From a virus, in the IMG/VR virus record IMGVR_UViG_3300044729_001179, positions 1-30,688 of that record: 30,688 nt of DNA; one strand, written 5' to 3'. A program made the position numbers and the translations under genes. Position 1 is the stretch's first letter; every line of letters begins with the position of its first letter. The notes below the pieces were generated by a model. That model saw nothing but the letters and a program-made list of their open reading frames with translations, had not been told where the DNA came from and did not search any database. Positions 2,944 through 30,688 of this stretch are shown here, piece after piece.

Positions 2944-4329
2944 CTATCCGATACGGACCAGTTGCGGCGCGTAAAGGCGCCGGGTCACCAGTTCGAGAGT
3001 GTACCGCAGGGCGTCGATGGAATGCTTGTGCTTGGAGTTCTCTCGGCCATCGAAGCGCGACAGGTCATCGATCAAGCGCTGACACCGCGGGTTCACGGTG
3101 AAGTTCCCGCGAAGCATCTCGCTCTGGAGCAGGCGGTACCCGGCGTATACGCTCCCCCGCGGCTTGTACGCCGTGTGGATGCGCGCGGGCCAGCTGCCAA
3201 CGGGGAGACGTAGATCGCGTTCGATGGCCTGTACCAGCATCGCGTTCGACTTCAGCGCGCCGCCACGTCGAGAGATGGCGGCACGGTCACCTACCCAGCG
3301 GTCCACGTCCTCCCAGCGCAGGCCGCAGCGCTTGAGCATGTCGAGGATCGCCTTGGCGTCCTGCTCTGGCGTCGTCATGCCGTCGCTCTGCACCTGGTCA
3401 AGCACCATGATCCGATGGTGCCCATCCTCCGTTGCCTGCATCGCCGTCAGGATCGCCACCTGGGCGCCAGACTCGCGACCGTGATCAATGCCGACGCCGA
3501 CGAGCCAGTTACCCTCCGGCGCCTCGTCCTTGACGTGAATCTTAGGGTCGAACGCGGCAAAGACGCGACCTTCAACAAACGTCGTCGTCCACTCACCGAA
3601 CAGGCGTTGACCTCGCTCCGACTCGAGGATGCCCTGCGAGAGCTCGTCGATCTGCGCCTGCGTCAGCATCGGACGCCCGCCGATCGGCGTCGTGTTCTCG
3701 ATGGTCAGCGGCGCGCAGATGTCGCGGACGCGCTTGTCCTCCACCATCTTCTTCAACCATTCCAGCGGCTTCCCGATGGGCGTCATCGTAAGCGAGATCG
3801 TGCCATGGTTCCGGAACACGCGCGGGACGAGCTCGTTCCACACGTCCTCCGGGGGCGGCTCGTCGATCATGATGTGGTGGAGCGTCGAACCGGCGAGGCT
3901 CAACGCCCCCTGTTCCACACTCCGGAACTTTAGGATGCTGCCGTTTACGAACCGGACCATCGCCTGACGGCCGCGGAAGCCCTTGCCCGCCACGAACTCC
4001 GTGTCAGGAAGGATCGAGTCCTTCGGCAAAAGGCGCCAGCACTTTTCCTGGATGGCGATCCCCTGCTGAGTCGTGACCGTGATCACGTGCGCCTCGATCG
4101 GGGCCGGGCGGCAATACTGGTAGGGATGAGCGCCGAGGCATCTGAACACGGTGTCCGCCATCCCCACCCATGTCTTTCCTACCTGGTTCGCGCCTCGGTA
4201 GAGACGTATGCGATCCGTGGCCTTGAGGAACTCCAGCTGCGGAGGCGTCGGCCTGAAGTAGGACAGCGGGTCCGTGTCGCTGCGGCGCGTCAGCGTGTGC
4301 GCCGCAGACGCGAGAGCGGACAGGCTCAC
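2944..4329 (-). CDS. terL: Terminase large subunit (packaging ATPase/nuclease)
   Basis: The protein has 461 residues and drives DNA into the prohead by ATP hydrolysis and cuts the concatemer. The Walker A loop GANQVGKT is at residues 46-53. A Walker B strand IMIDEP ending in the catalytic Glu is at 153-158, and a coupling-type segment TMTP follows near 181. The C-terminal RNase H-fold nuclease shows the first acidic site at IDHG (281-284) and a late SIDALRY motif near residue 440. Length and motif spacing are normal. The start overlaps the upstream XF1762-like gene by four bases, giving translational coupling. The sequence alone does not reveal whether packaging is cos, pac or other. Confidence 0.95.
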   Translation of the reverse strand: MSLSALASAAHTLTRRSDTDPLSYFRPTPPQLEFLKATDRIRLYRGANQVGKTWVGMADTVFRCLGAHPYQYCRPAPIEAHVITVTTQQGIAIQEKCWRLLPKDSILPDTEFVAGKGFRGRQAMVRFVNGSILKFRSVEQGALSLAGSTLHHIMIDEPPPEDVWNELVPRVFRNHGTISLTMTPIGKPLEWLKKMVEDKRVRDICAPLTIENTTPIGGRPMLTQAQIDELSQGILESERGQRLFGEWTTTFVEGRVFAAFDPKIHVKDEAPEGNWLVGVGIDHGRESGAQVAILTAMQATEDGHHRIMVLDQVQSDGMTTPEQDAKAILDMLKRCGLRWEDVDRWVGDRAAISRRGGALKSNAMLVQAIERDLRLPVGSWPARIHTAYKPRGSVYAGYRLLQSEMLRGNFTVNPRCQRLIDDLSRFDGRENSKHKHSIDALRYTLELVTRRLYAPQLVRIG

Positions 4330-4769
4330 TTGAGCACCTTACGCCAACGTGACTTTGCGGTCATCGGCTGATCCGTCCTGCGTCCATCTCGAGAGTTCCA
4401 ACCTTCCCCGTTCTTCCTGACGACACCATCGCACGACCAACCAGCGGCACGGAGGGTCACGCCCGGCTCGTCCTCGAGGATGTAAGTCTGGATATACGCA
4501 AAGCCCATCGCCTTTGCTGCCTGCGCTGCGCGAGAGTACAGGAAGGAACAGGCATTTTTCGTTCCGTTGGTGACTAAGCGCGTCACCTCCGCAACCTCGT
4601 ACTGAGAGACAGCACGGGCAACTGGGCGCCCGACGATCACCGCGCCCACCAGCGTTCCGTCATGCTCGGCGCCGATGCTGAAACGATGCCCCCTCACCGG
4701 CTTGTGATGTCGGTGGAGCTCCGCTACTACCTCGTTGGCCTGTGCCAACGTCAGCGGCACAGCACGCAT
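4326..4769 (-). CDS. XF1762-family, GNAT-like protein
   Basis: The protein has 147 residues and closely matches the pattern I know for XF1762-family phage proteins: an early HRHHKPVRGHRFSIG segment, then a strand with VGAVIVGRPVAR, then EVTRLVTNGTKNACSFLY, and later LRAAGW. These are GNAT-fold (acetyltransferase-like) proteins. The LV-x-NGT-x-NACS region stands where acetyl-CoA binding is expected, but a canonical Q/R-x-x-G-x-G/A loop is not obvious. The substrate is unknown. The family is frequent beside phage terminases. Resemblance of the fold to the Mu Mom DNA-modifying enzyme raises the possibility of base modification, which is inference. The gene sits between small and large terminase, joined to both by 1- and 4-base overlaps. 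Confidence 0.78.
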   Translation of the reverse strand: MRAVPLTLAQANEVVAELHRHHKPVRGHRFSIGAEHDGTLVGAVIVGRPVARAVSQYEVAEVTRLVTNGTKNACSFLYSRAAQAAKAMGFAYIQTYILEDEPGVTLRAAGWSCDGVVRKNGEGWNSRDGRRTDQPMTAKSRWRKVLK

Positions 4770-5143: not shown

Positions 5144-5531
5144 GATGTCGCTCCTGGTTGACGTTTATCCGGGTTGATGGCGGCTGTTCAATACTTCGGG
5201 TGCGGGTAAAAGGTCGAGGAACGCAAGCGGTCGGGGGGGGTCCCCTCGGTATACACGCCTTTTCGACCCGAAAAGGCCCGAAATGGCCCCGTTTCGAGAG
5301 GTCCGCGCCCCTGCTCGCGGGGACCGCGCGCGGTCATTCGTGCCCGAACTGCTACGCCTCGACTCATCGACATCCTCCCCTTCGCCTGCCACACCTGCCA
5401 CACCTGCCACACAAAAAACACGTCCCAGACTTTCTATATACTTTTTCTTTCTCTTAGATTAAGTCAACAAGAAGGTATGGCAGGTATGGCAATGGCAGGT
5501 TTAAAGCACCTTTGCCACACCTTGCCATACC
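5144..5531. other. 388-bp non-coding region with origin-like and packaging-site-like elements
   Basis: No convincing gene lies here. The part next to the small terminase (5144-5380) is GC-rich and contains an unbroken run of eight G (5233-5240) followed by TCCCC, and a 6-bp inverted repeat TTTTCG/CGAAAA (5260-5274). The other part (5385-5531) holds iteron-like 9-mers flanking an AT-rich stretch. Short open frames that span the 9-mers give Trp-Gln-Val repeats and are artefacts of the repeats. The region lies between the helicase and terminase genes and probably carries both a replication origin and signals for packaging and late transcription. Confidence 0.7.
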
Positions 5532-5556
5532 TCAACGAGGTGTGGCAGGTATGGCA
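5387..5556. repeat. Iteron cluster flanking AT-rich DNA: candidate replication origin
   Basis: The 9-mer TGCCAYACC occurs nine times. On the plus strand it starts at 5387, 5396, 5405 (last base differs), 5513 and 5523. As its complement GGTRTGGCA it occupies 5474-5482, 5483-5491, 5539-5547 and 5548-5556. Copies lie on both sides of 5412-5473, which is about 30% GC in an otherwise GC-rich genome. The 30 bases 5431-5460 are only about 20% GC and include TATATA. This is the classic layout of an iteron origin, with initiator sites beside a DNA-unwinding element. The final copies run into the end of the helicase gene and form a 10-bp hairpin around its stop codon. The initiator protein is not known. 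Confidence 0.72.
5435..5467 (-). promoter_or_regulatory. Possible promoter for the packaging/structural operon
   Basis: On the minus strand, TTGACT (5467-5462) resembles a -35 element and TATATA (5440-5435) a -10 element, pointing toward the small terminase. The 21-base spacer is too long for a typical sigma-70 promoter, so this is only a candidate. The AT-richness may instead serve strand opening at the origin. Confidence 0.25.
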
Positions 5557-6791
5557 GCGGACCAGAGCACAACGCGGCTTCCGTCAGGCTTCGTCACGCG
5601 GCGCTTCGTCCACCCGGCAGCGCGTAGGATGTTCCCAAGGCGCATGTCATCGGCGCGGCTGGCGTTGATCCTCTCGTTTCCAAGAGCACCGGTCCAGCAC
5701 TCGGAAAGGGTAATGCTCCCCATCTGAGTCCTGAGCCAGTTCACGACGGGCGCTTCCCATGAGTCCGTCGGGGCGTAGTGCTCGGCCTGCTCGGCGCGCA
5801 TCGCGTCCACCTCGGCGTCGAGGTGCCACGCCTCCCCCTGCGACCATGCGTGCACGGCTTCGGCCCATAGCTGCTCGCGGTCCAGCTGGAGGCGCTCGGT
5901 GTCGCACTGTCCTACCTCCACGACCCAGAACCGACGCGAGCCCGTCGCGTCCACCAGGAATTCCGCGTCATTCGTCGTGCCAGCGAACACAGTAGTCCGT
6001 GGAACATCGACGCAGTTACGGCCGTAAGCCGGGCGGTAGGAGTCCACCTGCGACGAGACGAAAGCCTTAAGGGCGCGGGCGTCCGCCTTCCTCATCGCGT
6101 CGAGCTCCCCGAGTTCGTAGATCCATGCGCCCTCGAGCGCAGAGAAGCGATCCTTACTCCCGAGGTCAATGTCGGAGTCCTTGAACCATTGACCGCCCAT
6201 GACCTTTACCGTCGTGCTCTTCCCGCATCCCTGCGTGCCCTTGAGGATCAACACGGTGTCCGCCTTGCATCCTGGCGTCATCGCTCGAGCCACGCACTGG
6301 ATGAGCCACGCACGCCCGACGGCGCGACTGAGGCGCGATTCATCCGCGGCGCAGTACTCCGATAGCCATCGCCCGATCCGCTCAACACCGTCCCATTCGA
6401 TCTCGTTGAGCCAGTACCGGACGGGATGATGGCGGCGCTTCGACGCGGCCCAGCTGATCGCCTCATGCACCGCGGTAGTCGTCGGCACGATGCCATACGT
6501 CCTTGCGAGCCGGTGCACGATGTCGGCCTCCGCTGCGTCTGTCACGGGTACGTCATCGAACGTCACGCGCTGCCTGAGCTCGCAGAACTCAAGGCGCCCG
6601 CGCCACACGGGATCGTGCTCAAGAATGGTCTGCACGTTGGCGAGGTGCGACTTCGGCTTACCATCCCGGATGACGTGCCCTGTCTGCTTGTCCCTCAGCG
6701 GGTCCGCCTTATCCAGAAGCGCCATCGTCCCGAGGTGCGGTCCTGGCTCGAGGTGCACGCCAAGCAGGTTGGCGATCTTGTCATCATCCAT
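5532..6791 (-). CDS. VapE/VirE-like superfamily 3 replicative helicase
   Basis: The protein has 419 residues. A Walker A loop GTQGCGKST is at 185-193, a Walker B strand WIYELGELD at 223-231, and a sensor-type segment FAGTTND with a following GSRRFW arginine pair at about 269-289. These and the HHPVRYWLNEIEWDGVERI lead-in (121-139) are the hallmarks of the VirE/VapE family, P4-alpha-like ATPases that unwind DNA at phage and plasmid origins. The C-terminal 70 residues look like a winged-helix DNA-binding domain. It follows the primase-polymerase with an 8-base overlap and a GGAGG ribosome site inside that gene. Its own 3' end lies in the iteron cluster, which supports a direct role at this origin. 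Confidence 0.9.
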   Translation of the reverse strand: MDDDKIANLLGVHLEPGPHLGTMALLDKADPLRDKQTGHVIRDGKPKSHLANVQTILEHDPVWRGRLEFCELRQRVTFDDVPVTDAAEADIVHRLARTYGIVPTTTAVHEAISWAASKRRHHPVRYWLNEIEWDGVERIGRWLSEYCAADESRLSRAVGRAWLIQCVARAMTPGCKADTVLILKGTQGCGKSTTVKVMGGQWFKDSDIDLGSKDRFSALEGAWIYELGELDAMRKADARALKAFVSSQVDSYRPAYGRNCVDVPRTTVFAGTTNDAEFLVDATGSRRFWVVEVGQCDTERLQLDREQLWAEAVHAWSQGEAWHLDAEVDAMRAEQAEHYAPTDSWEAPVVNWLRTQMGSITLSECWTGALGNERINASRADDMRLGNILRAAGWTKRRVTKPDGSRVVLWSAAIPATPR

Positions 6792-9480: not shown

Positions 9481-10182
9481 TTAACCGATCTTCACGCCAC
9501 GGACGGTAAAGGGCGTCGCCAGGCTCCAGTTACCCGCGGTCATGAGGCCCTCGAACGTCTCCATGCGGTACACGGTGCGCTGCACCAGGGCGTTGGAGCT
9601 CCCCGCCAGCCACGCCTTCCGAGCTCCGACGTAGGCGCGGACCCACTCCTTCTCGTCGCCGCCGTTGGCGGGAGACTTCTGCGGGAACGCCGCACGGTGC
9701 GTAGCCACACGACCCGGCCCAGAGTGAATGCAGGTGTCGTAGACGACGGCGTAGCCGAGGGCAGTCGTGAGGCCGATCGCCTTCGCGTGCGTGACGGCAG
9801 GGTTCCAATAGTTCTCGTCAAACACCTCGTCCTGCGCCTTATGCATGACGGGATCGGCCCCGGCCTCCTTGAGGAGCGAGACGAGGGCCTTAGCCCACTC
9901 CGGATGCGCTGCCGGGTTCAACTTCGCGGTCTCGTTCGCAGCGAGGCGCGGGACGTAAGGCTTGAGGGCCTCGGCGTGCTTGCCGCCCGCTGAGATGTAC
10001 TTCGCGACGATCTTGTCGAGGCTTCCGGCGTTGTCGGTGGCCTGATGCTTGCCGTAGCTGATCCCCGCGCCATCGCGAAGGATCGTGCATGTCTGGTACG
10101 CCGCGGGCGTCGGCACCTTGCCCGTCTCGAACACGGACAGGATCGAGTCGATCGCCTTCTTCTGCTCGTTCGTAACGCTCAT
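9481..10182 (-). CDS. Endolysin, GH46 chitosanase-like
   Basis: The protein has 233 residues and no signal peptide. The N-terminal part has the glycoside hydrolase family 46 pattern: Glu19 in SVFETGK and Asp37 in LRDGAGISYGKHQ, 18 residues apart as in the catalytic pair of chitosanases. The GSLDKIVAKYI and AIGLTTALGYAVVYDTCIHSG segments also fit this lysozyme-like fold. In phages such enzymes cleave cell-wall glycan. It follows the membrane protein at 10179-10571 with an ATGA overlap, making a holin-endolysin pair, and its ribosome site AAGGGGG lies in the holin gene. A terminator follows. Whether it cuts peptidoglycan or another glycan cannot be told from sequence. Confidence 0.8.
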   Translation of the reverse strand: MSVTNEQKKAIDSILSVFETGKVPTPAAYQTCTILRDGAGISYGKHQATDNAGSLDKIVAKYISAGGKHAEALKPYVPRLAANETAKLNPAAHPEWAKALVSLLKEAGADPVMHKAQDEVFDENYWNPAVTHAKAIGLTTALGYAVVYDTCIHSGPGRVATHRAAFPQKSPANGGDEKEWVRAYVGARKAWLAGSSNALVQRTVYRMETFEGLMTAGNWSLATPFTVRGVKIG

Positions 10183-10579: not shown

Positions 10580-11767
10580 CTACTCTACCAGGTGGGCGAA
10601 CATCGGGCCGAGAGTGTAACGGATGCGGGCGCGGGCAAGTTCCGCGTACTCGTCGGACAGTTCACACCCCACAAAGCGCATCCCCTCAAGCATCGCGGCG
10701 CGTCCCGTCGAGCCCGATCCCGTGAACGGGTCCAGGACAATCCCGCCGGGCGGCGTCACCATGCGGACAAGGTAGCGCATAAGTTCGGTGGGCTTGACGG
10801 TCGGGTGATGGTTGACGACGCTTGACGCCGTGCGCCCTGCGCCTGCTCGCGGCGACTGCGTGCCCGCGCTGCCCTCCTCGCGCTCGACGGCCTGCGCGCC
10901 TGTGCGTGTCGGGAGGTCACCGAGCACCTCGTCACGGTCTGCCCTGTCGGCCTTCGCCGTGTAGAAGTACCGCGCCGCCTCACGCAGACCATCCGTCACA
11001 TCTTCGCTGCCGTCGTGGAGGACGTTTGCGGGCCAGCGGCCGTTCTCCTTGTAGGTGTCAATCTCCTGGCCAATGAGGCCAGCAGACGCAAACTGCACAA
11101 CGCCATCCGACCGTTGCTGCCGTTGCTTCCGGCTGAAGTCTACGCTCTCGAGCTCAAACGGCACGCGGCAGGCGTCCACGTTGACCGCCCCTGTCCCGTG
11201 CGTCAGCACGTTGCTGGCGACTGTCCCGACAAGCGGCTTGCGCGCCATACAGATCGGCTCATGCGCTGGCTTCAACGCGGTGCCCCAGCCGGACCAGCGG
11301 CGGGCGTCGTCGGTGGCTGCAATAGTGACCTTTGCTATAGCTCCTTCCGCATGTCCTCCCAAGCATCCATTTCCACCGATCCCGTATGCAGGGCGTTCAC
11401 TCAGGATCTCCCGCTCCGCGCCCGCCGCCTTGTCGATAGCCTTTGACACATCCAGCGACTTTGGGAACCCTGACCCATACAGCCACATGATCTGGTCACG
11501 GATCTCGAACCCGGCGTCCTCGATGGCGCAGGTCATGCGATGGTACGTGCGCGAGCCAGAGAACGCGAGAAGGTGCCCGCCTGGCTTGAGCACGCGCAGC
11601 GCTTGACGCCACACCTCGAGGTCGTAGGCGATCCCCGAGGCGTCCCAGCGCTTGCCCATGAACCCGAGCTCATAGGGCGGGTCGCTTACGATGGCGTCGA
11701 TGCTGGCGTCTGGGAGCTCAGCCATGCGCGCTCGACAATCACCGACGAGGATACGCGCGCGACTCAC
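10580..11767 (-). CDS. DNA methyltransferase, beta-class (N6-adenine or N4-cytosine)
   Basis: The start is taken as GTG at 11767, which overlaps the RuvC stop as GTGA. The frame is open further upstream, but that part is antisense to ruvC. The product has 395 residues. Catalytic motif DPPY is at 29-32 inside SDPPYELGFMGKRWD, and the AdoMet-binding motif DPFTGSGSTG is at about 346-355, so the target-recognition region lies between them: the beta-class order. No restriction partner is present, so it is a solitary enzyme, probably protecting phage DNA against host restriction or tuning timing. DPPY fits adenine-N6 slightly better than cytosine-N4 but does not decide. The recognition site is unknown. 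Confidence 0.9.
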   Translation of the reverse strand: MSRARILVGDCRARMAELPDASIDAIVSDPPYELGFMGKRWDASGIAYDLEVWRQALRVLKPGGHLLAFSGSRTYHRMTCAIEDAGFEIRDQIMWLYGSGFPKSLDVSKAIDKAAGAEREILSERPAYGIGGNGCLGGHAEGAIAKVTIAATDDARRWSGWGTALKPAHEPICMARKPLVGTVASNVLTHGTGAVNVDACRVPFELESVDFSRKQRQQRSDGVVQFASAGLIGQEIDTYKENGRWPANVLHDGSEDVTDGLREAARYFYTAKADRADRDEVLGDLPTRTGAQAVEREEGSAGTQSPRAGAGRTASSVVNHHPTVKPTELMRYLVRMVTPPGGIVLDPFTGSGSTGRAAMLEGMRFVGCELSDEYAELARARIRYTLGPMFAHLVE

Positions 11768-12231
11768 GGCACGCCCCCATAGAGCGCGAGACACGCCGCA
11801 TCCGCGAGGCCGTCGTGGGCCTTCCGGCGCTTGCCCGGCGTCAGGTCCAGCCCTGGGATCATGGCGGCACGCGCGATGGATCGGGCCTTGCCCTCGCCGG
11901 GGATGTCTCGCAGAACGATCTTCTGCCACGACTGCGGCGTCGGCTCGATTACGTGCGGCACACGCCCCGCGAGGATGCCACGCCAGAGCCCGGCGCCGTA
12001 CCCCAACTTGAACATAGACGCGACTCCCTGCCCTGGCCGAGACGCCACGCGCTCAAGGACCGCAACGGTGACACCATGATCGGCGCACCACTGCCCTACG
12101 AGCCCGTCCATCTGCTCTGGCACGTAGCCATCCGGGCAGAGGTCGCGCGTGCAGTGCTGCTCCACGATGCGCCCGTGCGCGTAGACGACGAGGGCGCCGT
12201 CGAGGCCGGGGTCGATTCCGATGACGCTCAT
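11764..12231 (-). CDS. RuvC-like Holliday junction resolvase
   Basis: The protein has 155 residues, near the length of bacterial RuvC. The four RNase H-fold acids are visible: Asp7 in IGIDPGLDGALVV, Glu60 in VLERV, and the pair Asp140 and Asp144 in AHDGLADAACLAL. The basic KRRKAH before the last motif and the GKARSIARAAMIP helix fit DNA binding. It would resolve branched intermediates, trimming concatemers before packaging and completing ERF-promoted recombination. It overlaps its upstream neighbour by four bases (ATGA) and its downstream methyltransferase by four (GTGA). Confidence 0.92.
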   Translation of the reverse strand: MSVIGIDPGLDGALVVYAHGRIVEQHCTRDLCPDGYVPEQMDGLVGQWCADHGVTVAVLERVASRPGQGVASMFKLGYGAGLWRGILAGRVPHVIEPTPQSWQKIVLRDIPGEGKARSIARAAMIPGLDLTPGKRRKAHDGLADAACLALYGGVP

Positions 12232-12854: not shown

Positions 12855-12995
12855 ATGAGCAGCATTGATATTGGCGGTTTTTGTCGCGATCTCGTCGCCG
12901 TGATCATTCTCGGCGCCATCGTCACCGCGGGCGCGTATGCGTTCGTCCACCCCGAACCGTGCGTGCACATGGCGCACGGCCTTGTTTGCCGTTGA
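12855..12995 (+). CDS. Tiny single-span membrane protein
   Basis: The protein has 46 residues from the ATG at 12855, chosen because a CAGGAG site precedes it. The open frame extends upstream through the promoter region, but that part lacks a ribosome site. A hydrophobic segment (LVAVIILGAIVTAGAYAFV, about 13-31) follows a short polar N-terminus, and the tail has two Cys and two His. It is the first gene of the plus-strand early operon, 13 bases before the ERF gene. Early single-span phage proteins are sometimes superinfection-exclusion or host-takeover factors. That is speculation here. Confidence 0.6.
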   Translation: MSSIDIGGFCRDLVAVIILGAIVTAGAYAFVHPEPCVHMAHGLVCR

Positions 12996-13008
12996 AGGAG
13001 TAGAGTCT

Positions 13009-13776
13009 ATGTCGTTCCATATGTCCCCCACGATCGGTGAGCTCGCCAAGGCGCTCACCGCCGCGCAGTCCGAGATCACGCCTGCGAAGCGTGACAGCGT
13101 GAATCCGCACTTCCGCAGCAGGTACGCCGATCTGGCGTCGTGCTGGGATGCCGTGCGCGGCCCGCTCGCAAAGCACGGCCTGGCGCTCTCGCAGCTGGTC
13201 GGCGGAGACGGCGAAACCGTGCGGCTCACGACCATGCTGATCCATTCGTCCGGTGAGTTCATCGGGTCGGATGCGGTGTTGCGCCTCGCGAAGCACGACC
13301 CGGCTTCTTGTGGCTCGACGTTGACCTACCTTCGTCGCTACGGCCTGAGCGCGATCGTCGGCTTGTCCTCCACGGAGGACGACGACGGCGCCAGCGCCAC
13401 GACTCCGACGGCGCCCGCGGCCATCGCTGCCACGTTCGCCAGCGCCACCCCGACGGAGAAGATGCAGGCGGCTACCGCCCTCATCGAGACGGCGTTCCCT
13501 GGCGCCAAGACCACCTATGCGCCGATGGGCAGCGGGGCCGATGGTGATCCGTCCTGCCCTGTCTGCGGCAACCGCATGTGGGACAACCGCGGGACGCCTG
13601 AGAAGCCCAAGGCGAACCCCAAGGCGCCCGACTTCAAGTGCAGGGACAAGGCATGTAACGGCGTGATCTGGCCGCCCCGTGGCGCCAAGAAGGCCGTCGC
13701 CGCGGCTCCTCCTCCTCCCCCGCCGCCGCCGTCCGATGACGACGCGCCCCAGTACGACGAGGAGATCCCGTTCTGA
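13009..13776 (+). CDS. erf: ERF-family single-strand annealing protein with zinc ribbon and acidic tail
   Basis: The protein has 255 residues from the ATG at 13009, after a GAAGGAG site. Residues 10-125 carry the ERF recombinase signature: ALTAAQSEITPAKRD, NPHFRSRYADLASCWDAVRGPL, HSSGEFIGSDAVL, GSTLTYLRRYGLSAIVGL and EDDDG. Such proteins anneal complementary strands and circularise or repair phage DNA. A four-Cys zinc ribbon follows (Cys183, Cys186, Cys211, Cys216), then a Pro run, and the last residues DDDAPQYDEEIPF imitate the acidic tip of single-strand-binding proteins. The ATG of the Gp157-like gene overlaps its stop (TGATG). Confidence 0.92.
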   Translation: MSFHMSPTIGELAKALTAAQSEITPAKRDSVNPHFRSRYADLASCWDAVRGPLAKHGLALSQLVGGDGETVRLTTMLIHSSGEFIGSDAVLRLAKHDPASCGSTLTYLRRYGLSAIVGLSSTEDDDGASATTPTAPAAIAATFASATPTEKMQAATALIETAFPGAKTTYAPMGSGADGDPSCPVCGNRMWDNRGTPEKPKANPKAPDFKCRDKACNGVIWPPRGAKKAVAAAPPPPPPPPSDDDAPQYDEEIPF

Positions 13777-14273
13777 TGACTGGACATGAACTCATGAAGG
13801 AGGCGGGCGCGCTCGTCGCCCTCCTGGATGCGCCAGAGGGCGCGGACGCGGACGCATTCGACGCGCTCTTGGCAAACTGGCTTGACTCCACCGACGACAA
13901 GATCACGGCGTACTGGGCGGTGCTGCGCCGGATGAGCGATGAGGTGGACCAGCTGCGCGACCTCGAGGGCATCCTACAGCGTCGGCGCCGGTACATCGAA
14001 ACGCAGGAGGAGCGTGTAAAGGGGCTCGCCACGGAGCTCCTTGCAGCCCGCGAGGCCCTGGGCGAGGCCCCAAAGGTCAGGACGCCGTTGTTCTCCGCTT
14101 GGCTCGGTACGAGCCGGTCGGTAAGCGTGACGTGCGCCCCGGAGGAGCTTGAGGCGTGCTATCAGCGCGTCGTCGTCTCCGTGGACAAGCGCGCTCTACT
14201 GCGTGACCTTGAGGTCGGGCGCGAGGTCGCGGGCGCCTCCCTGGTCGAGAGTCGGGGTGTACGATGGCGGTAA
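13776..14273 (+). CDS. Gp157-family-like protein
   Basis: The protein has 165 residues. An N-terminal helical part with LDAPEGADADAFDALLANWLDS and a long middle helix (DEVDQLRDLEGILQRRRRYIETQEERVKGLATELLAAREALG) precede a short strand part (KVRTPLFSAWLGTSRSVSV). This is the layout of the Siphovirus Gp157 family, usually found next to single-strand annealing or nuclease genes. The biochemical role of the family is not settled; one member was linked to phage resistance in streptococci. The gene is coupled to ERF upstream and overlaps the winged-helix gene by ten bases. Confidence 0.78.
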   Translation: MTGHELMKEAGALVALLDAPEGADADAFDALLANWLDSTDDKITAYWAVLRRMSDEVDQLRDLEGILQRRRRYIETQEERVKGLATELLAAREALGEAPKVRTPLFSAWLGTSRSVSVTCAPEELEACYQRVVVSVDKRALLRDLEVGREVAGASLVESRGVRWR

Positions 14274-23838: not shown

Positions 23839-25796
23839 TAGACGGCCTCCCTCATTCCGACGGTGCGGGAGCCCCTTATCGCGTCAGCCAACGACCCACC
23901 GAGGCGCAGGTTGTCGCGCACGAAGTCGTTGTACACGCGATGCCGGTACTGCTGAACCGCCACAACCTGGACAGGCTGCGACATGCCAGCGTTCGCCCGG
24001 TTGATCTGGTCGTCTCCGATCATGTTGCGCCCGGTGCGGGAGAGCACGGCCTCCCCGGTGAGAAGCCGCGCCTGCGTCTCGTCTGGAACCATGCCGCCGC
24101 TGTGGAATGCAGGCTGCACCGACGCGATAGCCGCCAGCTGCGCCGCGCCCGTGGCACCGGCGAGGCCAGCGAGGAGGAGGTTTGGCGCTGGCGGCGTGGC
24201 GAGTGCGTTTGCAACGCTCGCTGCCGTTGCGATCGTGGCCTCAGCGAGGCGCCCGAGCTTCGCGATCTCGAACTGCTTACGTGCCTGCTGACGCTGCGTT
24301 TCGATGCGCTCCTTTAGCGCCTGGCGCTCAGCCTCCGTCATCTCGTCGCGGTTCGCCGCGAGCTCTCCCTCCATGCTGGCGAGAGTAGACGCGGCCTCGT
24401 CTGCGCTGCGCTCGATGCCGTCCGTTACCGTGGAAACGATCTGTCCCATTGCTTCGGCGGCGGCCTGCATCTGCTGACGGCGCAACGCGTCCCGCTCCTC
24501 GGCCTCTGCTCGCGCCTTGTCGAGGAGATCCTTGATGCGCGCCTCTTCGTCCGCGTCCGCCTTCGCCTGCTCTTCTGCGGCCTCGTCGCGCAGTTTCTGC
24601 ACCTCGTCGCTATACTTCTTCTCAGCGGCCGCGAGCGCGATCGAACCCTGGATCGCGGCTTCCTGGCGCATCTCCTCCGTCGACGCGAGCGCCTCGAGCT
24701 CCGTAGTTAGCGCCTGGATCTCGTCGCGCTGCTTGGCGTACTCGACGGTGAGTCGTTCCTCATCGGAAAGGAAATACTGACTGATGGAAGAGAGTTCCTC
24801 CATCCCGGCCGTGTAGTCGTTGACCCGCTGCGCGAGCTCTTGGAACATGAGAAGCGATTCATCGATCGCGTCTGCCTCATCACTGACGGCGGCGGCGTGA
24901 CTGCGCGTGGCCTTCGTGCCGCGTTCGGTGCGCTTCGTGTTCTCCTCACGGAGTCGTAGCGTTTCGTGAACGAGCCCGATCTCGCGTTCGCGCCGTTGGT
25001 TGAGGGCTGCGATCTGCTCCTCTTTCGCTGCGAGCGCCTGCCGGGCGGCGTTGACCGTCCCAACCTGGCGCACATCAAGACCCAGTTGTTCGATCGTCCG
25101 CTTGGCCTCGTCCCGCTGCCGAACGAGAAGCGCCTCCGACTCGCGATACCTCTCTTTGATCGCCTTGGTCGCCCGCACCTCGGCGGCCTCGCGCTCGGAA
25201 AGGTTGCCCGCGGCTACGTGGTATTGGAGGTCGAGCTCCTCCTGATTGCCCGTGACCATCGCCGTGGCTTCCGCCATCCGGCGCGCGGACTCGGCGGCCT
25301 TGTTGTTTCGCTCCTCCACCTCGCGCAGGTTCCGCGAAAGGATGGCATGAGCGGCAGCGGCGGCTCCCGCAGCGATGGCGACAGGTCCGAGGATGTTGAT
25401 CAGGTTGATGCCCGACGTAGACGCCACCTCGAACGCATCCGCGAGGTCGGCACCTGCGCGCGCGATGTTCCCGAGCTCCGGCGACACCATGCCGAGAGAC
25501 CCGGCCAGCTTCGACGCATCGGTACCCATGCGCCCAAAGTTCTGGCTCGCGTTGAGCGTCGCCGTCCCGACGTTATCGACGGCCTGGGCTGCATCGCGGG
25601 CCGCGGCTTCCGTCTCCTCCATCGCGCGGCGCGATGTTGCGGCGGCCTGGCGGGCGGCTGCCTCTGCGGCCTTGAAGCTCTTATTGAGCTCGTTCGCCAT
25701 CGCCCGCGCCTGCGGGGCTGTGATGCCGGGGATCGACTCGAGAGCCTTACGCAGCCCGGTGATGTCAGCGACAACGTTCAGATCGATGTTTGCCAT
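23838..25796 (-). CDS. Tape measure protein
   Basis: The protein has 652 residues. It is largely helical and Ala-, Glu- and Gln-rich with long coiled-coil stretches (about 30-75, 150-320 and 370-520). Hydrophobic segments are at about 135-155 (ILGPVAIAAGAAAAAHAIL) and near 540-580. The C-terminal part has the FHSGGMVPDETQARLLTGEAVL motif found near the end of many tape measures. This protein sets tail length and is ejected with the DNA. By the usual 1.5 angstrom per residue the tail would be roughly 95-100 nm. Position after the tail chaperones and AGGAGG leader agree. Confidence 0.92.
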   Translation of the reverse strand: MANIDLNVVADITGLRKALESIPGITAPQARAMANELNKSFKAAEAAARQAAATSRRAMEETEAAARDAAQAVDNVGTATLNASQNFGRMGTDASKLAGSLGMVSPELGNIARAGADLADAFEVASTSGINLINILGPVAIAAGAAAAAHAILSRNLREVEERNNKAAESARRMAEATAMVTGNQEELDLQYHVAAGNLSEREAAEVRATKAIKERYRESEALLVRQRDEAKRTIEQLGLDVRQVGTVNAARQALAAKEEQIAALNQRREREIGLVHETLRLREENTKRTERGTKATRSHAAAVSDEADAIDESLLMFQELAQRVNDYTAGMEELSSISQYFLSDEERLTVEYAKQRDEIQALTTELEALASTEEMRQEAAIQGSIALAAAEKKYSDEVQKLRDEAAEEQAKADADEEARIKDLLDKARAEAEERDALRRQQMQAAAEAMGQIVSTVTDGIERSADEAASTLASMEGELAANRDEMTEAERQALKERIETQRQQARKQFEIAKLGRLAEATIATAASVANALATPPAPNLLLAGLAGATGAAQLAAIASVQPAFHSGGMVPDETQARLLTGEAVLSRTGRNMIGDDQINRANAGMSQPVQVVAVQQYRHRVYNDFVRDNLRLGGSLADAIRGSRTVGMREAV

Positions 25797-29684: not shown

Positions 29685-30608
29685 TTAGAAGTCGGACAGA
29701 ATGCCGACGCCCTTAGCATCGTCGATCTCGCCAACGCCAACGAAGGCGCTGCCCACGATGATCGTGGAGCCGTTCGAGGCGTCACGCTCGAACTCGACGA
29801 CGATCGGGGACTGCGGGACTACAGTCTCGGAGCCCATGACAGGCGCCGCGGTGCCGGTCGCCAGGCCGATGGCGCCGGGGGCGATCATCATGCCCAGGTA
29901 GTCGGCGCCCGCGTTGGCGGTCGGGACGAAGGAGGACTTGAACACGTCCACCCCGTAGAGCGTGCCAGCGAAGCCCTGACCCTTGGCGAGGAGCATCTCC
30001 TGATTAGCCGCGATGTACTGGCCGGGGCCGGTCTCGGAGCGAAGCGAGGACATAAGATCGTTCAGCTGCTGCGGATGCAGGATGGCGGTGAACGGCCCGT
30101 TGTTGCTCTGAAGCTGGAGAGCAAACATGCCCGAGTAGAACGTCGTGACCGAGAGGTCAACGCCGGTGGAACCAACCGAGGTCGAGAACCCCGAGGACAG
30201 CGCGCAGATCATGGTCGTCGCCCGCTTCTGGTACGCAGCGACCATATCGGCGGCCAGGTTGTCGATCGTCACGTCGAGCGGGATCCCGGTCGCGGTCAGC
30301 TGCGCGAGGTCGCTGATTTGACGGCGGAGGGCCTGACGCGCGATCGTGATGTTCGCGTTCGTGGAGGTCAGCGCGGTATTACTGACCGAGGCGTTCTCGG
30401 CCACGGCCGCCATCGCGTCGGCGCCCCACGAAACAACGGGCACCTGAACGACGGTGGACCCGCTGCCGTTCATAGAGCGAAGCTGAAGGATGGACGGGTG
30501 ATTGACGAGGCTCGCGGAGTCCGTGAGCTTCTGAACGACGGCCTGATTGAGGATCGCGGCGAGACGGGCGTTGCCCGAGAGCCCACTAAAATAGACTTCG
30601 TTGGCCAT
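29685..30608 (-). CDS. Major capsid protein
   Basis: The protein has 307 residues and makes the capsid shell. After an N-terminal helical region (1-50), strand- and helix-rich parts follow the HK97-fold layout: DAMAAVAENASVSNT (E-loop area), a long spine-type helix (DNLAADMVAAYQKRATTMICAL, about 115-136), and a late domain with GATLYGVD-like YGVDVFKSS and the FERDASNGSTIIVGSAFVGVGEID end. It is directly downstream of the scaffold gene with a strong AGGAGG site. No N-terminal protease-delta domain is evident, which agrees with a separate scaffold. On the circle its start is at 118. Confidence 0.88.
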   Translation of the reverse strand: MANEVYFSGLSGNARLAAILNQAVVQKLTDSASLVNHPSILQLRSMNGSGSTVVQVPVVSWGADAMAAVAENASVSNTALTSTNANITIARQALRRQISDLAQLTATGIPLDVTIDNLAADMVAAYQKRATTMICALSSGFSTSVGSTGVDLSVTTFYSGMFALQLQSNNGPFTAILHPQQLNDLMSSLRSETGPGQYIAANQEMLLAKGQGFAGTLYGVDVFKSSFVPTANAGADYLGMMIAPGAIGLATGTAAPVMGSETVVPQSPIVVEFERDASNGSTIIVGSAFVGVGEIDDAKGVGILSDF

Positions 30609-30688
30609 TGTGGCCTCCTATGGAGTTCGACGTTGGCCGCGCCTGTCACTGTTTACGGGAGCTTGCCCCGAGCGCGCAGCGGCGTAGC
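30491..30688. repeat. Terminal direct repeat, right copy
   Basis: This repeats 1-198 with one silent change (30561 G, 71 A). Removing one copy closes the genome at about 30,490 bp. The right end stops exactly at the end of one arm of the 9-bp hairpin at 190-219, which suggests that the assembly, not biology, set the end. Confidence 0.93.

Follow-up and report, generated by a model that had tools for sequence, protein, structure and literature searches.

The locus studied here raises the question of what a cluster of repeated nine-letter words does beside the replication genes of a virus. The window is the whole stretch analyzed, 30,688 nucleotides of IMG/VR record IMGVR_UViG_3300044729_001179. 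The cluster is most likely the replication origin of a phage, and a comparison of about 200 related phages suggests the tail end of the adjacent helicase as the reader of its words. The window is a tailed phage and not a satellite, with a large terminase gene, putative portal and tail genes (including a weak tail-protein match), and a closed genome of 30.5 kb. Its two ends (1-198 and 30491-30688) are identical at 197 of 198 bases, with one mismatch, so the record either is a closed circle or carries terminal repeats. After closure the circle would be about 30,490 bp.

The array extends from 5387 to 5556, with three words on one side of an AT-rich segment and six on the other (Table 1). Nine copies of TGCCAYACC in both orientations had been predicted. 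Both strands do carry the word, but the count is eight exact copies (5387, 5396, 5513, and 5523 on the plus strand; 5474, 5483, 5539, and 5548 on the minus strand) and a ninth at 5405 that matches at 8/9 positions, its last base being different. The 8-mer TGCCAYAC is exact in all nine array copies and occurs 11 times in the window against 1.3 expected. The expected number of exact TGCCAYACC words in the whole window is 0.35, nine were reached in no shuffle, and the single further exact copy outside the array is isolated, at 25791. As the original prediction held, the words flank a low-GC stretch, which is the minimum of all 60-bp stretches in a window of 66% GC. Located at the helicase gene's 3' end, the array is at least 240 bp from the next gene. 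Also as predicted, the helicase gene ends inside the cluster, and the last two iterons are coding. They encode the tail AIPATP at the C-terminus, where the protein's final four residues are predicted to be disordered. Cumulative GC skew, which had been proposed as a check, has no extremum at the 5.4 kb array; here it is uninformative about the origin because it largely tracks gene orientation.

Table 1. Features of the putative origin and the adjacent replication genes (window coordinates)
Feature	Position	Strand	Remarks
Iteron set 1: TGCCACACC at 5387 and 5396, TGCCACACA at 5405	5387..5413	+	9-bp spacing
AT-rich putative unwinding segment	5414..5473		30% GC, lowest 60-bp GC of the genome
Iteron set 2a: TGCCATACC twice, contiguous	5474..5491	-	
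Iteron set 2b: TGCCACACC and TGCCATACC	5513..5531	+	10-bp spacing
Iteron set 2c: TGCCACACC and TGCCATACC	5539..5556	-	within 3' end of helicase gene
VapE-type SF3/AAA+ helicase, 419 aa, proposed self-loading initiator	5532..6791	-	PF05272, E 1.7e-77; 7pds; AF2 model
Predicted C-terminal winged helix codons (residues 346-412), proposed iteron reader	5556..5756	-	
PrimPol (archaeo-eukaryotic primase-polymerase), 288 aa	6784..7650	-	PF09250, E 6.2e-36
Ribbon-helix-helix-like protein, 69 aa	7652..7861	-	label of the original prediction; no family match

The replication genes next to the array include a likely initiator. On the minus strand the order is ribbon-helix-helix-like protein, PrimPol, VapE helicase, array, a 124-aa protein, a Mom-like protein, and large terminase. 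The end of the PrimPol gene overlaps the helicase start, while its own start has no upstream overlap. The original prediction found no recognized Rep/O-type initiator, and among the ten proteins around the array and the others scanned (Pfam and PHROGs; part of the frames) there is no separate Rep/O-family protein. However, the VapE helicase itself is a relative of SaPI Rep1 (PDB 7pds), with a sequence profile E value of 1.2e-71, and its predicted fold matches DNA-bound Rep1 with a TM score of about 0.75 over its length. The missing initiator is therefore probably the helicase. Its AlphaFold2 model has a mean pLDDT of 94.3 and ends in three helices (346-353, 362-370, and 379-391) followed by two strands (394-400 and 406-412), and this C-terminal end is predicted with high confidence to be a winged helix.

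The arrangement corresponds to a known type of origin. In SaPI Rep and Cch2 it is the C-terminal domain that binds iterons, which lie immediately downstream of the helicase gene (PMC7581432), and in PICI origins an AT-rich region is always flanked by two sets of iterons (PMC6092414). Like SaPI1, with its Rep1, and the Gram-negative PICIs, the window has a primase gene upstream of a VapE-type rep gene (in some cases the two are fused), a C-terminal domain on the Rep protein, and, immediately 3' of rep, an AT-rich region with an iteron set on each side. The proposal of a distinct minimal replicon is not supported, since a primase, a Rep helicase, and iterons around an AT-rich region 3' of rep make up the published SaPI/PICI layout (PMC7581432, PMC6092414). 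The window differs from these elements in being a tailed phage and in its iterons, which are 9-bp words of both orientations and lie in part within the helicase gene. It probably has a SaPI/PICI-type Rep-iteron origin in a non-satellite tailed phage. The Cch2 - CCPol-MP system of SCCmec (eLife 2020, PMC7581432) also resembles what is proposed here, in that a helicase of the self-loading type binds downstream repeats with its C-terminal domain, but Cch2 belongs to the Primase_Cterm/D5_N helicase subfamily and its primase is based on an A-family polymerase rather than a PrimPol.

The sequence is still best read as originally predicted, as an iteron-type origin that has an AT-rich unwinding segment and adjoins a PrimPol-helicase pair. 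The proposed mechanism is modelled on SaPI Rep, Cch2, and the PICI origins. The VapE helicase would bind the iterons by its C-terminal winged helix and assemble on both iteron sets, on either side of the AT-rich segment. It would then melt this segment and load itself as the replicative helicase, after which PrimPol would prime the exposed strands. Host replication proteins would probably extend the primed strands, since no replicative DNA polymerase was found among the window proteins scanned. We consider it very probable that the array is an origin working in this way. The sequences show the array with its AT-rich segment, the gene order, the relationship to SaPI Rep1, the predicted winged helix, and recoded arrays that recur next to helicases of this family; from these we infer origin activity and the steps of binding, melting, self-loading, and priming.

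The array is kept in related phages, while the word changes. Conservation of TGCCAYACC in relatives had been proposed as a check, and it holds for the closest ones (L010, L024, and L027), which keep both word and array; the L027 helicase is 62% identical to that of the window. Beyond these the array persists in recoded form. In phages whose helicases are 58% and 53% identical, it is at the same place but made of different words. The words of relatives include TGTCCAYACC (L028), TGTCCCCACC (L092), TGTCCACCC (L093), and TGTCCAACC (L095), and TGTCCCACC is a further example. Words differ from phage to phage but are homogeneous inside each phage. Arrays of their own words are found in Pseudomonas phage vB_Pae_U5, Corynebacterium phage CL31, Bacteroides phage F2, Marinobacter phage PS3, and Acutalibacter phage Fontainebleau, and the same detector found none in Streptococcus phage Javan100 and Rhizobium phage X2_26. 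An array was found no more than 1.5 kb from the helicase gene at 97 of 145 distinct VapE loci (85 downstream and 12 solely upstream), compared to 5 of 68 control stretches taken from these contigs; the detector gave none at the remaining 48 loci. A query with PF05272 against 274 genomes added few loci, which were left out of later analysis.

The survey bears on two other functions for the array. The next genes in the window are those for the 124-aa protein, the Mom-like protein, and the large terminase subunit, which raises the possibility of a packaging (pac/cos) or terminase-recognition site. The array adjoins terminase genes in the window and in L024, L027, and L095. In other phages the neighbor of the array is the helicase and not terminase, and several loci of the AAA_25 class described below have an SSB-like frame after the array. 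Furthermore, in L022, L031, and L039 the array is 5' of the helicase gene. The tracking of helicase genes at two-thirds of the VapE loci also argues against a packaging site, and this function is extremely improbable. A second possibility is that the words are operators for a transcriptional regulator, as short words in mixed orientation can be, and some arrays do lie upstream of the helicase operon. The window array, on the other hand, is at the 3' end of the helicase gene, well before the next gene, and it brackets the segment of lowest GC, making operators highly improbable. An origin is the preferred explanation of the array.

Arrays of this kind also accompany a second and unrelated class of helicase. 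When IMG/VR was scanned for three words in mixed orientation, 17 loci were obtained, against a chance expectation estimated to be well below one. Some of these encode VapE helicases about 30% identical to that of the window, in genomes of 35-51% GC, and others encode a RepA-like AAA_25 helicase, in several cases with a fused Toprim primase domain. The mixed-orientation scan was the sole specific scan for the word. An 18-base literal-word scan gave mostly chance matches in protein-coding sequence of low-GC phages, and a scan for three copies on the same strand gave mostly low-complexity coding repeats. Clear words are present at 54 of 80 AAA_25 loci, with 23 different words in which TGCnnn precedes ACC, AGT, or a similar ending. 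The arrays begin at or near the helicase stop codon and have a conserved geometry, with sites near 0(-), 21(+), 31(+), 40(+), 68(-), 105(+), and 147(+) after it. The AAA_25 helicase core matches RSF1010 RepA (1nlf) with a TM score of 0.81 by target length, and the model ends in a winged helix with the same order of elements as the VapE one. Homology of the two winged helices is not established, as hhalign gives a probability of 20% (P 0.0012). RSF1010, with its RepA-RepC-RepB' system, shares with the AAA_25 phages the hexameric RepA helicase core and an iteron origin. It differs in that a separate protein, RepC, reads the iterons (PMC4234260), while the phage helicases have the extra C-terminal winged helix, with residues that covary with the word.

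Three further repeat clusters are recorded here. The nearest relative, L025, has a 12-bp tandem repeat of about 21 copies upstream of its PrimPol gene (L025:2521-2761), the unit of which contains GCCGCCGCA. Three contigs of Bifidobacterium callitrichidarum (L077, L083, and L085) have dispersed, mixed-orientation clusters of TGCCACACC in stretches where no VapE or AAA_25 helicase was detected; these may be genomic intergenic repeats or part of another replicon. In L033, eight copies of TGCCAYACC surround an AT-rich segment (L033:5149-5482) beside terminase and Cpn60-like genes, and no VapE helicase was detected in the 10-kb locus.

Covariation between word letters and helicase residues suggests that the winged helix reads the word. 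The AAA_25 set comprised 47 loci after removal of near-duplicates, and columns were corrected for overall distance. The top columns are residue 405 for word position 4, 409 for position 6, 352 for position 7, and 356 for positions 8 and 9, all within the final 70 of the 420 residues. At residue 356, 23 phages with words ending in C have Q and 20 with words ending in T have R, with four exceptions. On a tree built from the motor only, position 4 changes eight times, and residue 405 agrees with it in about 5.7 of 6 supported independent pairs, which ranks first among 347 columns; the pairing of position 9 with residue 356 ranks second, with agreement in three of four pairs. In the Pseudomonas-like clade of the VapE class, all 18 GWRR helicases go with TGTCCC and all 15 GWRK helicases with either TGTCCT or TGTCCA. 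The window counterpart of the variable residue is K396, which lies in the first wing strand. For the TTCC clade, word position 5 has its top column at an F/Y residue of the last wing strand. K396 and R398 of the window helicase are the counterparts of covarying positions in relatives. With two and three changes behind them, and a single supported pair in each case, the VapE signals agree with a helicase that reads the word but are not independent proof. The domain-level test on 55 VapE loci does not discriminate, since the partial correlation of the C-terminal segment (0.15), although among the highest, is equalled by residues 49-73 and 162-186. Overall, 8 of the 13 word positions tested have their top column in the C-terminal domain, where about two to three would be expected, although positions are not independent. 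Top columns outside this domain were found for position 1 in the TGTCC clade, position 5 in AAA_25, and positions 1 and 6 in the TNCC group.

The same origin could instead have its iterons read by PrimPol, the ribbon-helix-helix-like protein, or a host factor, and we regard this as unlikely. PrimPol is adjacent to the helicase and conserved with it in L027, L028, L092, and L093, and the prim-pol of phage NrS-1 starts at a specific 8-nt template sequence (PMC8775771). NrS-1 polymerase resembles the window proteins in combining PrimPol and AAA+ helicase regions, with some structural similarity (6k9c, TM about 0.49), but it is a single protein in which the prim-pol/HBD part reads the 8-nt site. 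The window PrimPol has no match to the NrS-1 HBD (PF22763), although L022 has one, and the AAA_25 phages have such arrays together with a Toprim primase domain or no detected primase domain, and not with a PrimPol. The helicase, the ribbon-helix-helix-like protein, and a duplicated family A/B protein had been put forward as binders. Of these the helicase is the best candidate, because the gene for the ribbon-helix-helix-like protein was not found in the more distant L027, L028, L092, and L093, all of which have PrimPol, helicase, and array. If a host factor were the reader, the word should not vary between phages of similar hosts. A different reader is also disfavored by the AAA_25 word letters, which follow helicase residues.

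The inverted words might act as a stem-loop or cruciform rather than as protein sites, as proposed for the origins of pRN1 and phage BIP-1. Folding of the 183-nt strand is far stronger than that of shuffled versions (z -8.4), the outer iterons form 20-nt arms that are 95% complementary, and pRN1 requires a stem-loop 3' of its PrimPol-SF3 gene (PMC4234260). Such folding, however, is expected of any inverted iteron set. The sites include direct runs; their number, order, and spacing vary in relatives; and the conserved AAA_25 order (-,+,+,+,-,+,+) does not form one single stem. A purely structural role is thus very unlikely compared to protein binding. The systems are otherwise alike, in that pRN1 ORF904 and BIP-1 have a PrimPol, an SF3 helicase, a winged helix, and a required region 3' of the gene (PMC4234260), and pRN1 also has a small upstream gene, which in that plasmid is a repressor. 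They differ from the window in having a fused protein and an origin interpreted as a stem-loop and not as iterons. In Bordetella phage BIP-1 (L356:1108-1211), TTGCCTCGT occurs twice and its complement twice, as inverted pairs around a short gap. The region published as a stem-loop origin has these four copies only, and it may be a small inverted iteron array.

Three things are new beyond the window: arrays are widely present in phages, the word is recoded from one phage to the next, and a second class of motor follows the same logic. There is about an even chance that the broader picture is correct: PICI-style origins are not confined to satellites but widespread in tailed phages, the helicase winged helix reads the origin, word and residues are recoded together, and this occurs with two unrelated motors (SF3/VapE and RepA-like AAA_25), either by swapping of the reading domain or by convergence. 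A literature search that reached neither most subscription papers nor key SaPI papers found no description of wide arrays, recoding, or a second motor. The survey contradicts the statement that no other known bacterial replicon has such an organization. Origins are unannotated in many phages with VapE or RepA-like helicases. If the broader picture holds, the origin could be located from sequence alone, by the helicase gene, and its word could be partly predicted from a few winged-helix residues. Recoding would also imply many mutually distinct replication specificities. It would offer a direct route to study how these diverge, as in incompatibility between co-infecting phages and satellites, and the recoded words are a natural set of variants for tests of protein-DNA recognition.

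Several other genes of the window are also recorded. The Mom-like DNA modification protein (4326-4769, minus strand; phrog_1384, E 3.5e-34), encoded between the 124-aa gene and the large terminase, is also found in L027 and L092. An N6/N4 DNA methyltransferase (10580-11929, minus strand), an Erf-like annealing protein (12937-13776, plus strand), and a Gp157-like protein (13776-14273, plus strand) are present as well. The protein encoded at 9481-10182 (minus strand) has a glycoside hydrolase family 46 domain of the chitosanase type (E 4.5e-25), which makes it a candidate lysis or wall enzyme, an unusual one for a phage.
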